A stretch of DNA of 64,000 nucleotides from positions 2,046,001 to 2,110,000 of the forward strand of contig NC_017583.1 in the NCBI RefSeq assembly GCF_000184345.1. The letters are read 5' to 3'. The stretch comes from Spirochaeta thermophila DSM 6578. GTDB lineage: Bacteria; Spirochaetota; Spirochaetia; Winmispirales; Winmispiraceae. Within the stretch, counting starts at the first letter, position 1; each line of letters starts with the position of its first letter. A model generated the notes under the pieces. The model was not told where the DNA came from and made no database searches. It saw only the letters and a program-made list of their open reading frames with translations. The position numbers and the translations under genes were made by a program. Shown piece by piece: positions 39,781 to 47,307 of the stretch.

Positions 39781-41108
39781 TGTTGAAATGGGGGGGTGTC
39801 AAGACTCGATAAAAATGTCACCCTTTTTAACTCAGTTAAAATGTCACCCCCTGGGTAGTATTCTCTTCATCCTGCCCGCTGTTTGGTGTGCCGTGCAGGA
39901 GTTACCCGCTCATACTTCAACTCCCTATTCTCATGGAACAGGGAGATCGTTTCATCCAGGTATTTTCGAACCAGGACCTTCTGTTTCGGCCGAGGAAGGA
40001 AGCCTTTGTCGTTCTTGATCTGCAGCACCTGCCTCTCATAGTAGATTGTGTAATCGTTTTGTACGACTCGATTCGCTTCAAAGCAAAAGATCTCTTTCAG
40101 CTTCGTTTCTTTGGTACATCGCACATGCACGTCCTGCGAGTCTTCCGCTTCTACCGCAAAGCGTTCGTTGAACTGAGGCAGGAACGTCTCCCACAAGTAC
40201 CGGTTCGCCTCCTCGATCGTACAAATCCCCGCAAGACGCAGTTCCTTCACCAACCGATCCTGCAGAATCCCGTTCCGCCGTTCCACCCGCCCTTTCGCTT
40301 GCGGCGAATACGCACTCACGATCTGTACCCCCAGTTTGTCGCACGCCCGCTCGAATGCGGTTTTCGGCTCTTTGCCCGCCAACTGTTCCTCCAGCGTCGG
40401 TTCCCGCAGCGTCTTGTAGCCGTTTTTCAAGTCACAGTACAGACTCATCGGGATCCCATACTGCTCCACCCAGCCCCACAGCAGCTGCATCGCCGCAGCG
40501 CTCGTCTCCTGTTCACTGAACCGCGCATACGTGATCCCCGTCGCATCATCCACCATCACCATCAAGCAACAGGCACTGCGCCGTCCTTCAAACCAATCAT
40601 GCGGGGACCCGTCAAACTGAACCAGCTCCCCAAAACAGGCCCGCCGTTTCCTCCGGCTTCGGTACGGCTTCCTCCTCTTCTTCCTCGCCCAGATTCCTTC
40701 CTCCAGCAGCCACCTGCGTAGCGTCTCGTGATCCACCTCAAGACCTTCCTTCGCCAACTGCTCGCTCGCAAACGTCGGCCCAAAATCCCCGTACCTCTCC
40801 CGATACCTACTCACCACCCTCTGCCGAAACTCCTCCTCCTTCCGATTCCCCGACGGTTTGCCTCGGTTCCCATGCCGCAATCCCGCGATCCCCCCTTCCC
40901 GGAGCCTCTTCTTCCACCGCTGCACCTGCCGTTTGCTCACCCCTAAGATCTGCGCTACCTGCTCGTTCGTCAGACCTTGGCTTTCCATCTTCCCCAACAC
41001 TTCCGCTCGTTTTAATTCCTTTAGACTCATCTCGATCATCCCCCCATTCTCTCAGGGGGTGACATTTTTATCGAGTCCTAGGGGTGACATTATTACTGAG
41101 TTTCAACA
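39781..41108. mobile_element. Complete IS1202-like insertion sequence (ISNCY group)
   Basis: An element of 1328 bp bounded by TGTTGAAA at 39781 and its inverted copy TTTCAACA ending at 41108. Each end carries two copies of an approx. 22-bp motif around ATGTCACCCC (39804-39823 and 39830-39852 on the left; 41054-41076 and 41080-41101, inverted, on the right), likely transposase-binding sites. One full-length transposase gene fills the interior. I could not see matching target-site duplications in the flanks. It sits between the envelope operon promoter and the end of the cNMP-binding regulator gene and interrupts no obvious gene. Confidence 0.88.
39867..41039 (-). CDS. IS1202-like (ISNCY) DDE transposase
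   Basis: A 390-residue full-length transposase. The N-terminus is a helix-turn-helix (LTNEQVAQILGVSKRQVQRWKKRL) followed by a second DNA-binding region. The rve-type catalytic core has the first Asp in LVQFDGSPHDWF, the second in SLYCDLKNGYKT and the Glu in KGRVERRNGIL. The tail (KVLVRKYLDETISLFHENREL) matches the ISNCY/IS1202 type. It starts at ATG 41039 after a G-run. No frameshift or internal stop is seen, so the element may be active. Confidence 0.9.
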   Translation of the reverse strand: MIEMSLKELKRAEVLGKMESQGLTNEQVAQILGVSKRQVQRWKKRLREGGIAGLRHGNRGKPSGNRKEEEFRQRVVSRYRERYGDFGPTFASEQLAKEGLEVDHETLRRWLLEEGIWARKKRRKPYRSRRKRRACFGELVQFDGSPHDWFEGRRSACCLMVMVDDATGITYARFSEQETSAAAMQLLWGWVEQYGIPMSLYCDLKNGYKTLREPTLEEQLAGKEPKTAFERACDKLGVQIVSAYSPQAKGRVERRNGILQDRLVKELRLAGICTIEEANRYLWETFLPQFNERFAVEAEDSQDVHVRCTKETKLKEIFCFEANRVVQNDYTIYYERQVLQIKNDKGFLPRPKQKVLVRKYLDETISLFHENRELKYERVTPARHTKQRAG

Positions 41109-41190: not shown

Positions 41191-42429
41191 TCAGAAGGCG
41201 TCCTGCGTCTTGACTCCCTTGCGCGCCCGCTCGATCCGTTCGATCTTCCTGTAGGACTTGGCCTGCTTCTCGAGCTCGGCCACGTCGCTCACCACGATCC
41301 TGTCGTCGAGCACTCGGATGAACTTGGAAGAGAGGATCTCCTGGAAGGCCCGCAGTCCCTTCTCCTGGGGGAGCCCCACCATGTTGACGAGCTCCCTGGG
41401 ACCGAAATCGAAGGTATAGGCGCTCCCGTCACGGATGGAGACCCTCAACTTTTCGAGGTGGATGAGCATCCCGTCGTAGAGGCGCGCCACCGGGTTCGCG
41501 AGCAGGGTGTTGGCAAGCTGTTTGTAGAGGAACCAGATCCGTTCGGCGAGCAGGGTGGTGAGCTTGGCGATGAGCTGGGGTTGGGTACTCACCATCCGCT
41601 CGAAATTCGCCTTGTTCACCACCAGGAGGGTGCAATCCTCGTGAGCAATGGCCGAGGCCGAGCGGGGTTTGTTCTCGAGGAGGGCCATCTCCCCGAAGAT
41701 ATCACCGGGCTTGAGAACCGCGAGGAGGACCTCCCTGTCGTTGACGATCTTGGTGATCCTCACCGAGCCCTTCTGTATCACGAAGAGTTCCTCCCCCGGC
41801 ATGTTCTCGCAAAAGATCATGGTGTCCTTGGGGTAGGTGCGGGTGAGTCCCTCGGCGGGCTCGAGGAAGACCGGCCGTGCATAGGGTTTGATCTTCTCCA
41901 TCCTCGCCTTCGCCTGTTCCACGTTCCGTCCCTGAGGAGCATACTTGAGGTACTGGTAGTAGGCGTAGTAGGCGATCGAGTACTGGTTTTGCCGTACGTA
42001 GTACTCACCCACCCTGAAGAGGTGCTCGAGATCGTACTCCTCTATGGTGTGCTTGAGGGTGAGCTGGGACAGCTTCCTGTCGAGATGTCGCATCTGGCGT
42101 GAGAACTTCTCGATGATCTTGAGCGCCACCGGGGTGTTCCGCTCGATGAGGAGGTGGTAGTTGTCACGGTGCACGGCGATGAGCGAGACATCGGTGAGGG
42201 CCTGGGCCGTCTCGATGTGGCTGTGGCGTGACATCGTGGCCACCACGCCGAAGAAGTCACCCGGCCCGAGGATGTCCCCCCCCTCGTCGTCCACTACCGA
42301 GGTCTCCCTGGCCAGACGCACCTGTCCCGAACGGATGATGTAGAAGTAGTCGGCATCCTGCTTGCCTTCCACGATGATGTACGCGCCTTTCCGGAAGTTG
42401 ACCAGGGAGAGCTGGAGTGGTTCAGCCAT
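41191..42429 (-). CDS. Double cyclic-nucleotide-binding domain regulator (Crp/Fnr-like)
   Basis: A 412-residue cytoplasmic protein with two cNMP-binding beta-rolls. The first is at about 10-120 (KGAYIIVEGKQDADYFYIIRSGQV, GPGDFFGVVA). A helical TPR-like hinge follows at about 135-185 (YYVRQNQYSIAYYAYYQYLKYAPQG). The second roll is at about 200-310 (GEELFVIQKGSVRITK, GDIFGEMALLENKPRSASAIA), with the canonical phosphate-binding GEMALL and RSA. The C-terminal 100 residues (FDFGPRELVNMVGLPQEKGLRAFQEILSSKFIRVLDDRIVV) resemble a Crp-type winged helix, so DNA binding is likely. The double-roll arrangement is one I associate with spirochaetes. It is transcribed from its own promoter downstream of the ECF-sigma operon. 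Confidence 0.85.
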   Translation of the reverse strand: MAEPLQLSLVNFRKGAYIIVEGKQDADYFYIIRSGQVRLARETSVVDDEGGDILGPGDFFGVVATMSRHSHIETAQALTDVSLIAVHRDNYHLLIERNTPVALKIIEKFSRQMRHLDRKLSQLTLKHTIEEYDLEHLFRVGEYYVRQNQYSIAYYAYYQYLKYAPQGRNVEQAKARMEKIKPYARPVFLEPAEGLTRTYPKDTMIFCENMPGEELFVIQKGSVRITKIVNDREVLLAVLKPGDIFGEMALLENKPRSASAIAHEDCTLLVVNKANFERMVSTQPQLIAKLTTLLAERIWFLYKQLANTLLANPVARLYDGMLIHLEKLRVSIRDGSAYTFDFGPRELVNMVGLPQEKGLRAFQEILSSKFIRVLDDRIVVSDVAELEKQAKSYRKIERIERARKGVKTQDAF

Positions 42430-42700: not shown

Positions 42701-44275
42701 CTAGTAGACGCCCACCACTTCCACCGAGTAGGAAACCCGATCGAACGAGACGCCCCGCCACTCGTGGCTCGTTTCCCAGAGGGCCGGAGCCTCCTCCGAG
42801 AGGGCGGCCTCACCCCCTGGTACGAGGCGTTCCGTCGAGGTGTCCTCCCTGAAGAGGAGCAGATGCTGGGCCGAAAGCCCACCGAGGAAGAACATCTCAT
42901 CCTGCCCCCGGTATCCTTCGGGGATCCGCACCACCCTCTGAATCGCCGTGGGATCCACGGGCACCCATCCCATGCCGGGGAGCGCAGCCTCCACCCAGTA
43001 GTACCACCCGAGGTCTCCGCGCCCCTCCAGAAGGACCCCACCCACGAGGCGCACGGGGAGTCCTGCCATGCGACCGAGCTCCGCGAGGAGGCGGGCCTTT
43101 CCAAGGGAGGACCCCCTTCCGGCGGCGAGGACCTGGGCCGGCTCGCCCGGACCTCCGGGGTCGTACCCCACGACGTCCCGGACCCAGGTGAAGAGACGCC
43201 AGAGCCGCTCGTAGGCCGTCCCTGTGAGTTCTTCGAAGAGCCCTCCCAGCCGCTCGTCACCCGCATCGATGGCGCCGGAGGGTCTGGTATACGCCTCGTA
43301 CGAGGAAGCCTCCGCTTTCGAAAAGGAGAGACGAGGATCCACATCCTCTATCCACATAGGATACACGTCGCACACCACGGCCCGCTCAGCGATGAGGACC
43401 CCGGGTCCGGAAGAGAACCTGAAGGCGAGACGCCGATCGTTCTGGAAAAAGGGGGGCGGCGTCTCCTCCACGTCCCTTATGTTCCGCTGCCAATGCGTGC
43501 CCAGGACCCGGGGAAGCCATGCCACCACCACACCCGTAGGTTGGAAACGCACTCCCTCCACCGTGGTCCGGAAGGTGAGGGCATAGGTGACCGCATCACC
43601 GTACTCCCTCCTCCCCGGTGCGGTGTCGACTTCCACAAAGACCCCGCTCGAGCGCTCATCCCCCCTCGCGAGAAAGACCTCTCCCCCCGCCGCACCCTCC
43701 GGCATGCGGAAGACCACCTCCTCGTCGGTCCAGGAGATCACCTGATCGATCGGGACCGGCAGGAACCGCGAGGCCTCGCCTTGTACCGCCGCCCTTCCCG
43801 CCCACGTCACGAAGACACGCCCTCCTTCCCTCAGGCGAGAGAGCCCTCCTCCCGAAAGTCGTACGAGCTGACCTATCCTCACCCGCGCCGGCTCGACCTC
43901 CGAGAGGACTGGCGAGGCGCCCTCCTCGTACGCCACCGGGATCTCTTCCTTCACCGCGAAGAGGACCCCGTTGCTCCTGCTCCCATCACGGGCCTCCACC
44001 ACCACGAATCCGGACTCCACGTCCTTGGGAAGCTCCACCTCCACCGTCCTGCCACTCCACGACCGCACGTTCCGCTGGAGGAGCTGTCTCCCCCCCACCC
44101 ACACCTTGCCCGGCTCACCTCCGAATCCCCGACCCACGATGCGCACCACCTCCCCCGGCGAAGCCACCTCGGGCACGACCCGAACGATCCGCGGGGGCAG
44201 GGCGTCGACCACCCACATGAACACCGCACCCAACGTCACCGCTATGGAGAAGACCGCGAACGAGCGCAGCATCAC
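42701..44275 (-). CDS. TIG-domain protein with catalytically altered transglutaminase-like domain
   Basis: A 524-residue exported or membrane-anchored protein (hydrophobic segment at residues 5-26). Residues about 28-108 and 121-216 are two IPT/TIG-type Ig-like domains (PRIVRVVPEVASPGEVVRIVG; PVLSEVEPARVRIGQLVRLSG). A middle region of about 120 residues follows, then a transglutaminase-like fold at about 355-450. There the catalytic Cys position is Ser390 (GSSLGKA), the His of HAW is Tyr425 (WYYWVEA), and only Asp441 of the DPT motif is kept, so thiol catalysis is not expected. It probably binds peptidoglycan or protein. The start overlaps the stop of the secreted-protein gene by 4 bases. It is the last gene of the ECF-sigma operon. 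Confidence 0.75.
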   Translation of the reverse strand: MMLRSFAVFSIAVTLGAVFMWVVDALPPRIVRVVPEVASPGEVVRIVGRGFGGEPGKVWVGGRQLLQRNVRSWSGRTVEVELPKDVESGFVVVEARDGSRSNGVLFAVKEEIPVAYEEGASPVLSEVEPARVRIGQLVRLSGGGLSRLREGGRVFVTWAGRAAVQGEASRFLPVPIDQVISWTDEEVVFRMPEGAAGGEVFLARGDERSSGVFVEVDTAPGRREYGDAVTYALTFRTTVEGVRFQPTGVVVAWLPRVLGTHWQRNIRDVEETPPPFFQNDRRLAFRFSSGPGVLIAERAVVCDVYPMWIEDVDPRLSFSKAEASSYEAYTRPSGAIDAGDERLGGLFEELTGTAYERLWRLFTWVRDVVGYDPGGPGEPAQVLAAGRGSSLGKARLLAELGRMAGLPVRLVGGVLLEGRGDLGWYYWVEAALPGMGWVPVDPTAIQRVVRIPEGYRGQDEMFFLGGLSAQHLLLFREDTSTERLVPGGEAALSEEAPALWETSHEWRGVSFDRVSYSVEVVGVY

Positions 44276-44823
44276 CCCCCTTCCTCCCCCTGCCCCTCGG
44301 GTTCACCCCCTTCCGGCGCATCATCGGCGGCCCCGCCCTGCGGCTCTTCATCGAGGGCTCCGTCCAGCCATATCTCCATCACGATGTGGTACACGTCGTT
44401 TCCCTGGACGTGCACGTCGGCCCGCCCCAGGGGGAAGAAGACCACCTTCTCTCCGATCTTGAGCGGGATCTCCTTCACCGTGGCCACGTACCTGAGTGCA
44501 TCGCCCTCGTCCGCAGTCCACACCTGTCCCTCGGCGAGGATGAGATACGACCCGTCACTCCGCTCGAAGGGGGTGATACGTGCGAGGACCACCAGGTCCT
44601 TGCCCACGAGTTTTATGGTGACCGCCTTGCCGGGAAGGGTGGCCCGGGACCGGTGGACCTCCCACTCGAAATCCTCCACCCCCTCCAGTCGGGTAGCGAT
44701 GTTCACCGTAACGACCCTCTCTATGGTGGAGAGGAGGTCCTCCACCCGGTCGTCCTGACCGAAGACCGGCATGAGGGAGACGGTGAGGAGCCATGCGACG
44801 AATATGCGCGTATGCATCGTCAT
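44272..44823 (-). CDS. Secreted protein of the ECF-sigma operon, unrecognised
   Basis: A 183-residue protein with a signal peptide (MHTRIFVAWLLTVSLMPVFGQ). The mature part is beta-rich (FEWEVHRSRATLPGKAVTIKLVGKDLVVLARITPFE; EIPLKIGEKVVFFPLG), ending in an acidic Gly/Glu-rich tail (GGEPEGQGEEGG). I do not recognise a family. It overlaps the anti-sigma gene upstream and the TIG/transglutaminase gene downstream by 4 bases each, so its product is made in fixed ratio with them. It may be part of the envelope signal sensed by this sigma system. Confidence 0.7.
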   Translation of the reverse strand: MTMHTRIFVAWLLTVSLMPVFGQDDRVEDLLSTIERVVTVNIATRLEGVEDFEWEVHRSRATLPGKAVTIKLVGKDLVVLARITPFERSDGSYLILAEGQVWTADEGDALRYVATVKEIPLKIGEKVVFFPLGRADVHVQGNDVYHIVMEIWLDGALDEEPQGGAADDAPEGGEPEGQGEEGG

Positions 44824-45314
44824 CTTCCGGACGAGAGTCGTACGAAGACGGGGGTCCCGTATGCCCGGGGAGAGGGGACAGGAGGAAGCTCTATCACGAG
44901 CTCGTCCTGTGAGGAATCACCCAACGCGCGGACCATCTCCCCACCCGGCTGGGCCGAGGGCAGGGGGACCACCGCCTGCTGCACCACATCCATGCTTGCC
45001 TGGCCGCCCCACATCCCGAGGATGACCCCCAGGGAGAACCCCGCACCGGCAACGGCGAGGACCACGAGCAAGGCGAAGACCGGCACGGGGAGGGCGATCC
45101 CCGCCACCCGGCGGGGCGCAGTGAGGACCGCCTCCACCCTCCGGTACACCCGGGCTGCAGCCTCTTCCACCTCTTCCCTCCCGATCACCCAGGAGGAGAG
45201 GAAGGCGGAGAGGCGTCCGTAGGTCTGCAGTGCAGGATGCTCGAGCGGAACCTCGTTCCCATCCCGCATCCGATCGTACCTCTCGCTCATGGAGAGCCAT
45301 TCCTTCTCGTTCAT
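44820..45314 (-). CDS. Anti-sigma-factor-like single-pass membrane protein
   Basis: A 164-residue protein with a cytoplasmic N-terminal 75 residues (MNEKEWLSMSERYDRMRDG to YRRVEAVLTAPRR), one membrane span (about 72-102, LPVPVFALLVVLAVAGAGF) and an external tail of about 60 residues rich in Pro and Ser. It lacks the zinc HxxxCxxC motif of ZAS-type anti-sigma factors. The call rests mainly on topology and on the 4-base overlap with the preceding ECF sigma gene, an arrangement typical of sigma/anti-sigma pairs. Confidence 0.65.
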   Translation of the reverse strand: MNEKEWLSMSERYDRMRDGNEVPLEHPALQTYGRLSAFLSSWVIGREEVEEAAARVYRRVEAVLTAPRRVAGIALPVPVFALLVVLAVAGAGFSLGVILGMWGGQASMDVVQQAVVPLPSAQPGGEMVRALGDSSQDELVIELPPVPSPRAYGTPVFVRLSSGR

Positions 45315-45823
45315 ACCATCCCCCGGTCCTCAAGCAGCTCGGCGAGCCTGCGCCGGGCCCTGAAGATACGGATCTTCACGTTGGCTTCGGATATGCCAAG
45401 CGCCTTCGCGATCTCTCGATACGCGAAGCCCTCGTACTCCCGCAAGACGAGCGGCACCCTCAGGTTGTAGGGGAGCGCCATGATCGCATCCCTCACCATG
45501 CGGGAGTCCTCCTCCTTGAGGAGACGGGACTCCTCGCTCTCCTCGGTCTTGGGCTGCTCCTTGAAGAGGCTGGTGAGCGCACGCCGCTCCCTCGTACGTC
45601 GCCGCTCGTGGTTGTAGGCGAGGTTACGGGCCACCCGGATGAGCCAATAGGTGGCCTCGTCGGTATCCTGAATCGTATGCATCCGAGGGTAATAGCGGAT
45701 AAACGCCTCCTGACAGATCTCCTCTGCCACATGGCCGTCGCCCGTTATCCGGTAGACCACCCTGTAGAGTACGGGAAACGCATGCCGGTACACCCTGTCG
45801 AAAAGCCCGTCGTCATGATACAT
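45311..45823 (-). CDS. ECF-family RNA polymerase sigma factor
   Basis: A 170-residue group 4 sigma factor. Region 2 spans about residues 8-75 (LFDRVYRHAFPVLYRVVYRITGD; AEEICQEAFIRYYPRMHTI; ATYWLIRVARNLAYNHERRR), including the usual polymerase-binding and -10 reading helices. Region 4 spans about 110-160 (MALPYNLRVPLVLREYEGFAYREIAKALGISEANVKIRIFRARRRL), a complete helix-turn-helix for -35 reading. There is no region 3. Directly upstream the sequence GTAACTTT (minus strand, 45848-45855) resembles an ECF-type -35 (GGAACTTT), hinting at self-activation, but spacing to the start is awkward. It heads a four-gene overlapping operon. Confidence 0.92.
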   Translation of the reverse strand: MYHDDGLFDRVYRHAFPVLYRVVYRITGDGHVAEEICQEAFIRYYPRMHTIQDTDEATYWLIRVARNLAYNHERRRTRERRALTSLFKEQPKTEESEESRLLKEEDSRMVRDAIMALPYNLRVPLVLREYEGFAYREIAKALGISEANVKIRIFRARRRLAELLEDRGMV

Positions 45824-45858
45824 ATACTACAACAACCCATGTCCCTGAAAGTTACACC

Positions 45859-47271
45859 CTAGGTGGTCTTTCGCTTCCAGCGCGGCCCCTGTGGCGTATC
45901 CTCTACGATGATACCCCGACGCGCGAGTTCGTCACGAATCCTGTCGGCCTCCGCAAAGTCCCGCTGCTTCCGCAGGGCCTCACGTCGCTGGACGAGTTCG
46001 AGGAGCTCGGGTTCGAGCGCATCGTCGGAGGCGATGGCCTCCGCAAGCGAGAGGCCGAGAATACGGTCCATGGTCACCGTGAGTACGGCCCGTTCCTCGG
46101 GCGGGAGGTCTTCATCCTTCACCGCACGCCAGAGCACGGCGAGTGCCCGGGGCGTGGAGAGGTCGTCTCCTATCGCCTCCTCGAACTCACGCTTGTAGGC
46201 CTCACCCCTCTCGGAGAGCGGAGTCTGCTCCCACCCCTCCCTGGGATGAAGCCCGCTCAGGTGTTCGATGAGGTTGCGTCGTGCGTTCCTGGCCGCCTCG
46301 AGTGCCTCCCACGAGAAGAAGAGCTGGCTCCTATAGTGCGCCCCGAGGCAGAAGTACCGGTAATCGAGGGGATGGAAGCCCTCTTCCTCGAGACTGGAAA
46401 GCGTGAGGAAGTTGCCCTTCGATTTGGACATCTTGCCGGAATCCATGACGAGGAACTCGGCGTGGAGCCAGTAGCGTACCCAGGGGTGCCTCCCCGTGGC
46501 GCCTTCGCTCTGGGCGATCTCGTTGGTGTGGTGCACAGGGATGTGGTCCACTCCGCCGCAGTGGATGTCGAACTGTTCACCGAGGTACTTCATGCTCATG
46601 GCCGAGCACTCGAGGTGCCATCCCGGATACCCTTTCCCCCATGGGGAGTCCCACACCATGGCCTGGTGCTCGAACTTGGAACGGGTGAACCACAGGACGA
46701 AGTCCCGGGGACTGCGCTTGTGGGCATCCACCCCGACACGGGCACCGGCGCGGAGATCCTGCTCGTCGAGCCGAGCCAGCTCTCCGTACCGGGGAAAGGT
46801 GGAGATGTCGTAGTAGACATTGCCGCCTGCAAGGTAGGTGTGGCCGCGTTCCTCGAGCCGCTTCACCAGGTCGATCATCTCGGGGATGTGCTCCGTGGCC
46901 TTGCAGACGATCTCGGGTCGCTGGATGTTGAGTTTGTCCGTATCCTCGAAAAAAGCCTTGGTGAAGAACTCGGCGATCTCCCACACGCTCATCCCTCGCT
47001 CGCGCGCGGCCTTGATCACCTTGTCCTCTCCCTCGTCGCCGTCGCTGGTGAGGTGGCCCACGTCGGTCACGTTCATCACGTGCACGAGTCGGTAGCCCGC
47101 ATGGAGGAGGGTGCGCCTCAGCACATCCTCGAAGATATAGGTGCGGAGGTTCCCGATGTGGGCATAGTTGTAGACCGTGGGGCCGCAGGTGTACATCCCC
47201 ACCTTGCCCGCCTCCCGAGGGACGAACGGCTCCTGGATCCTGCCCATGGTGTTGAAGAGCCTGAGTTCCAT
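45859..47271 (-). CDS. cysS: Cysteinyl-tRNA synthetase
   Basis: A 470-residue class I aminoacyl-tRNA synthetase, the normal length. It starts MELRLFNTMGRIQEPF and shows the zinc/active-site MYTCGPTVYNYAHIGNLR (with the HIGN nucleotide signature), HLECSAMSMKYL, the Cys-binding HCGGVDHIPVHHTNEIAQSE, and KMSKSKGNF (KMSKS loop). The ATG at 47271 follows GGAG and is divergent from murB 48 bases away. No T-box or similar leader is seen. Confidence 0.97.
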   Translation of the reverse strand: MELRLFNTMGRIQEPFVPREAGKVGMYTCGPTVYNYAHIGNLRTYIFEDVLRRTLLHAGYRLVHVMNVTDVGHLTSDGDEGEDKVIKAARERGMSVWEIAEFFTKAFFEDTDKLNIQRPEIVCKATEHIPEMIDLVKRLEERGHTYLAGGNVYYDISTFPRYGELARLDEQDLRAGARVGVDAHKRSPRDFVLWFTRSKFEHQAMVWDSPWGKGYPGWHLECSAMSMKYLGEQFDIHCGGVDHIPVHHTNEIAQSEGATGRHPWVRYWLHAEFLVMDSGKMSKSKGNFLTLSSLEEEGFHPLDYRYFCLGAHYRSQLFFSWEALEAARNARRNLIEHLSGLHPREGWEQTPLSERGEAYKREFEEAIGDDLSTPRALAVLWRAVKDEDLPPEERAVLTVTMDRILGLSLAEAIASDDALEPELLELVQRREALRKQRDFAEADRIRDELARRGIIVEDTPQGPRWKRKTT

Positions 47272-47307
47272 ACCCGCTCCATTCTGGCGGTAGCGCCCGG
47301 TTTCTGC

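Follow-up and report, generated by a model that had tools for sequence, protein, structure and literature searches.

In E. coli the rpoE-rseA-rseB-rseC operon encodes an autoregulated sigma factor, a transmembrane (TM) anti-sigma factor and exported and membrane-anchored products, all from a single operon. For spirochaetes, PMC7309211 describes TP0092 as the sole ECF sigma factor of Treponema pallidum, and PMC4222731 credits it with 22 putative target ORFs. The anti-sigma domain ASDI is defined in PMC7406223, according to which the zinc motif Hx3Cx2C occurs in about half of the known ASDI members and is not required, zinc and non-zinc groups being mixed and RskA and RseA being cited as members without the motif. 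The locus described here belongs to Spirochaeta thermophila DSM 6578 (genome of one contig, 2,560,222 bases) and lies in the window, by which we mean the whole stretch of 64,000 nucleotides that was analysed. On the minus strand, from 45823 to 42701, overlapping genes for an ECF sigma factor, a protein with one TM helix, SEC and TIG follow one another (Table 1). The likeness to the E. coli operon lies in the grouping of a sigma factor and its TM anti-sigma factor with one exported and one membrane-anchored protein, together with a putatively autoregulated promoter, the conserved TGTAAC-N14/15-GTTGT before the sigma gene. The families differ, however: none of the operon proteins belongs to the RseB or RseC family by any test made, so that SEC and TIG stand outside both, and just 1/38 anti-sigma homologues matches RseA_N.

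A previous sequence-only reading of this DNA had recognized the four genes, and all of them are present on the minus strand, although the range that it gave (44272-45823) omits the fourth, TIG. It also had all four genes overlapping by 4 bases; this holds for the sigma/TM and TM/SEC junctions, but for SEC/TIG only if the GTG at 44275 starts TIG, as with the ATG at 44272 the overlap is 1 base. Its remark that it knew of no described system of such composition can be kept in part: the sigma/anti-sigma pair relates to TP0092 (RpoE), whereas the four-gene architecture was not found described in open-licence papers. The architecture, with its orphan periplasmic protein and dead transglutaminase, thus appears to be new by comparison with those papers; the sigma/anti-sigma pair is of a known type, being a syntenic relative of T. 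pallidum TP0092. Beyond the operon lies a transposase/integrase-like gene (39867-41039), with a gene for a double cNMP-binding protein (41191-42429) between the two.

Table 1. Positions of the operon, its promoter elements and its upstream neighbour in the window
Feature	Position	Strand	Description
cysS	45859..47272	-	Conserved upstream neighbour and syntenic anchor of the operon; stop codon 45859-45861
-35 element TGTAAC	45851..45856	-	Putative autoregulated promoter; conserved before sigma across Spirochaetia
-10 element GTTGT	45832..45836	-	14 bases after TGTAAC, 8 before the sigma ATG
ECF sigma factor (P0001)	45311..45823	-	170 aa; regions 2 and 4
Predicted class I-type anti-sigma factor (P0002)	44820..45314	-	164 aa; one TM helix; periplasmic tail end ELVIELPPVPSPRAYGTPVFVRLSSGR
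SEC	44272..44823	-	Exported beta-rich protein, 183 aa; orphan family of class Spirochaetia
TIG	42701..44275	-	524 aa; N-terminal membrane anchor, two TIG domains, beta domain, Cys-less transglutaminase-like core

Among 60 relatives of the class, SEC was matched in 38 and TIG in 46, and the two genes adjoin. The sigma gene was found together with TIG in 41/44 loci of relatives, and in 41/44 loci the gene immediately upstream, on the same strand, is cysS. A search with the TIG alignment against 84,980 species returned 80 loci, all assigned to Spirochaetota, about 30 of which have the order sigma-TM-SEC-TIG, and the full four-gene order was present in five further loci. Matches to the SEC profile among 198 genomes of the phylum fell only in the class Spirochaetia. 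Treponema loci have the order cysS-sigma-TM-TIG, SEC being absent. The proposed promoter box GTAACTTT (45848-45855, minus strand) turned out to be real: it is the -35 half of TGTAAC-N14-GTTGT (45832-45856) and is conserved before the sigma gene across Spirochaetia. In its strict form, TGTAAC-N14/15-GTTGT, the promoter occurs in 44/111 distinct sigma upstream regions compared with 0 in 100 shuffled sets; most of the remaining regions, including those of Treponema and of a T. pallidum-like genome, show by eye the TGTAAC box followed by a second half that varies. Conservation of the gene order in spirochaetes, which the earlier reading had made its test, is thus confirmed across the class, and as the order recurs behind cysS in dozens of genomes and the promoter exceeds its shuffled controls, the operon is not a product of chance. 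In the full four-gene operon we see the spirochaete RpoE locus in its ancestral form.

The operon is very probably autoregulated by its sigma factor, as had been suggested, because the promoter is conserved and the sole exact copy of TGTAAC-N14-GTTGT in the S. thermophila genome is the one at the operon. In many relatives only about 4 to 8 bases separate GTTGT from the sigma start codon, so few that the sigma mRNA is probably leaderless. A wide sigma regulon was considered and dropped, the motif being at control level: TGTAAC-N13-16-GTTGT was not enriched in 60 genomes (224 matches vs 302 for the reversed control), and sites with at most one mismatch in the S. thermophila genome numbered 10 vs 12 in the control. 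Some individual sites may be recorded. A one-mismatch copy lies in an AT-rich gap at G000:C1:838080-838104 (L282, position 1501, minus strand), and 67 bases after it begins a gene whose product, an exported membrane protein of 216 aa, has a SHOCT-like C-terminus; this gene is a candidate for a second sigma target. Another one-mismatch promoter-like site (G000:C1:2496413-2496437, L288) precedes a gene for a CheR-like methyltransferase by about 90 bases, and exact copies in two close species (G026:C1:2444156-2444180 and G046:C17:85930-85954) lie upstream of a gene for a YihY/BrkB-like membrane protein.

The window sigma factor matches PF04542 and PF08281 above cut-off, as well as TIGR02937, and other sigma regions are absent; it thus has the form of an ECF (group IV) factor, regions 2 and 4 only within about 170-190 aa. 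The TM protein had been called anti-sigma-like, and its family supports this: zf-HC2 was matched in 29/38 homologues, and among solved structures the family profile finds ChrR, RslA and RsiW, the match covering the N-terminal domain. The homologues start MCPxxxxLSAYxDGE...HxxxCxxC, and the model of a relative has helices as in the ASDI pattern. The family resembles the class I (zinc-type) anti-sigma factors ChrR, RslA and RsiW in this N-terminal match and in the presence of Hx3Cx2C in 94/111 loci; it is P0002 that differs, the zinc ligands having been lost in the window protein and throughout the window's genus. As zinc and non-zinc groups are mixed (PMC7406223), the missing ligands do not exclude P0002 from ASDI. 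Family membership makes the TM protein an anti-sigma factor, and P0002 itself is predicted to be one by way of homology, synteny and tail only.

The end of the anti-sigma factor carries a motif that reads roughly hydrophobic-x-hydrophobic-x-LP-x4-F-x3-GEP-x-LLRAADY. Expressed as a regular expression, it is present in 52/57 loci with SEC and absent from 51/54 loci without SEC; tail motif and SEC are therefore concordant in 103/111 loci, and reading the eight exceptions by eye left one. On the sigma tree SEC shows about three changes and the tail four, with the same direction in all comparable pairs, and a sign test on about three independent SEC losses cannot reach significance. That SEC may be the reader of the anti-sigma tail is, we infer, the best single idea to come from these data. 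In the Treponema loci L163-L215, where SEC has been lost, a different conserved element, VDVFRPDF..IxIxIP, is found in the anti-sigma tail. When AlphaFold was run on a continuous TM-SEC chain (made by reading through the stop in a relative with both genes in frame), the tail was undocked on SEC and its pLDDT was below 50; the alignment is shallow there, which makes this a weak result. Apparent natural TM-SEC fusions in G227 and G317 were rejected, as the long open frames are separate overlapping genes in GC-rich DNA.

On the observed gene order, promoter conservation, protein families and loss of a catalytic Cys (see below) we base a model to which we give an even chance, namely a self-contained autoregulated ECF stress loop like that of rpoE-rseA-rseB-rseC with unrelated periplasmic parts. 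P0002 would bind the sigma factor and so keep it at the inner membrane, and SEC would contact and read the conserved periplasmic tail of P0002, in the place that RseB takes on RseA. Envelope stress would take SEC off the tail, upon which the anti-sigma factor would be inactivated, probably by regulated proteolysis. The freed sigma factor would then fire TGTAAC-N14-GTTGT and raise sigma factor, brake, SEC and TIG alike, giving feedback that would be positive for the sigma factor and negative via brake and SEC. TIG, membrane-anchored and catalytically dead, would mainly be an output and may bind an envelope ligand (a peptidoglycan peptide or an outer-membrane protein). We count this loop as weaker because the tail was undocked on SEC, SEC losses number about three, Borrelia has TIG alone and no RseB or RseC family member was found.

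A substantial possibility, if well short of an even chance, is that SEC and TIG are plain outputs, envelope proteins produced when needed, with the sigma/anti-sigma pair sensing alone and the correlation of tail and SEC reflecting shared ancestry. This explanation draws on the patterns of gene loss. The T. pallidum-like genome (G078, 1.14 Mb), which, judging by its locus order, is presumably T. pallidum itself, has its sigma gene at 101.6 kb, and there cysS, sigma and an anti-sigma gene with HxxxCxxC are followed by phosphate acetyltransferase; no TIG relative was found in this genome, and SEC too has been lost there. The locus of T. pallidum TP0092 (RpoE/sigma24) is like that of the window in lying behind cysS and in having a homologous sigma gene, an adjoining zinc-type anti-sigma gene and the same TGTAAC box, and differs in the loss of SEC and TIG, with phosphate acetyltransferase after the anti-sigma gene. 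By its sigma gene directly behind cysS, its anti-sigma gene and its TGTAAC box the window operon is a TP0092-type locus. The gene behind the T. pallidum-like sigma (L218:5098-5754) encodes a zinc-type anti-sigma domain and is probably the brake of TP0092. Two further families retain the sigma factor, the anti-sigma factor and the promoter only.

Borrelia-like genomes (chromosome about 0.91 Mb; L095, L098 and L099) have a full-length TIG directly behind cysS, with E about 1e-47 to 1e-51 in the three genomes, and no sigma factor, anti-sigma factor or SEC was found at this cysS-TIG locus. From its position behind cysS this relative is probably B. burgdorferi BB0600, which would then share with the window operon a full-length TIG behind cysS and differ from it in having no sigma factor, anti-sigma factor or SEC. 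The listing of bb0600 as a cyclodextrin transglycosylase-domain gene (PMC2845121) fits the TIG domain of cyclodextrin transglycosylase-type enzymes. Since Borrelia has retained TIG but not the sigma factor, TIG appears to have a function of its own, which argues against its being solely a sensor. The survival of TIG without a sigma factor, that of sigma factor, anti-sigma factor and promoter without SEC and TIG (in the two families and the T. pallidum-like genome) and the undocked tail all favour plain outputs. Against them, the tail motif has gone in each SEC-less lineage though the anti-sigma factor stays, and in Treponema the conserved tail element FRPDF stands in instead.

The TIG model consists of an N-terminal helix (2-24), two TIG domains, a beta domain and a transglutaminase-like core. 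PDB 3isr matches residues 224-524 (Z 18.4 over 249 residues), the TIG domains of CGTases match the first TIG domain, and PF01841 was matched in 25/25 TIG proteins tested. The likeness to transglutaminase-like proteins (3isr, TgpA 6g49) is thus one of fold, and the difference lies in the active site: at the position of the catalytic Cys, set by alignment to TgpA 6g49, none of 108 homologues has Cys (A in 59, S in 37 and otherwise P, G, T, I or V). Of the two other triad residues, His persists in 102/108 homologues and Asp in 107/108; in the window TIG a Tyr replaces the catalytic His. TIG therefore lacks the Cys-His-Asp triad of transglutaminases, and with Cys missing everywhere from this domain we agree with the earlier view that neither of the exported proteins resembles an active enzyme. 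Retention of His and Asp without Cys, as in a binding cleft, would suit TIG as the sensor, the dead transglutaminase cleft binding peptidoglycan peptides and signalling to the anti-sigma factor with SEC as chaperone or linker, and Treponema does retain TIG with sigma and anti-sigma factors after the loss of SEC; but TIG outlives the sigma factor in Borrelia, sigma and anti-sigma factors outlive TIG in other genomes as well as in the T. pallidum-like one, and we consider this arrangement improbable. A new kind of periplasmic co-regulator, in which SEC would clamp the anti-sigma tail and the pseudo-transglutaminase cleft would read cell-wall peptides, is a tentative proposal and in our judgement rather unlikely.

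For the SEC family there was no Pfam, NCBIfam, PHROG or PDB relative above chance. The SEC model, made from a relative, is nearly all beta, with pLDDT of 82-95 in most ten-residue blocks over the domain, and the best matches of this predicted model are secretin cores (Z 9-11, rmsd 3.3-4.4, about 110-130 residues), followed by outer-membrane barrels of simple meander topology at Z about 7. None of 33 SEC members has a Pfam secretin match (PF00263), and with hhalign the SEC profile scored against 49 diverse secretins as did the shuffled-column controls. We note a likeness of predicted fold only and claim no kinship with secretins, the sequence tests being at control level. The likeness between 'GEPxLLR' in the tail and the secretin stretch 'SAPQLLT' was not significant, and LolA, which appeared among weak Foldseek rows for the SEC model, was absent from the VIA list; both were set aside. 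In PDB 8co1, a type II secretion complex, SEC resembles the secretin chain (Z 9.0) and the first TIG domain the IPT/TIG chain (Z 12.6). That SEC is a reduced secretin-core protein which forms or caps an envelope ring, guarded by the operon, is improbable, for although many secretins match its model above the unrelated rows at about 7, the Pfam and profile comparisons speak against it, as do the meander barrels that come next.

With the self-contained stress loop as our preferred reading, the locus bears on spirochaete biology in several ways. A probable anti-sigma factor can be named for the sigma factor of the syphilis spirochaete, and the envelope parts that this lineage has lost can be shown. 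Because the four-gene operon is the ancestral form of the T. pallidum switch, it gives a hint of the signal to which that switch once responded, and a Borrelia gene of unknown role can be explained as a leftover of the same operon. Two unannotated families of envelope proteins are defined, and their contact with the anti-sigma tail is directly testable. A transglutaminase family in which Cys is missing throughout, and which is linked to a stress sigma factor, would, if true, be a new pseudoenzyme.
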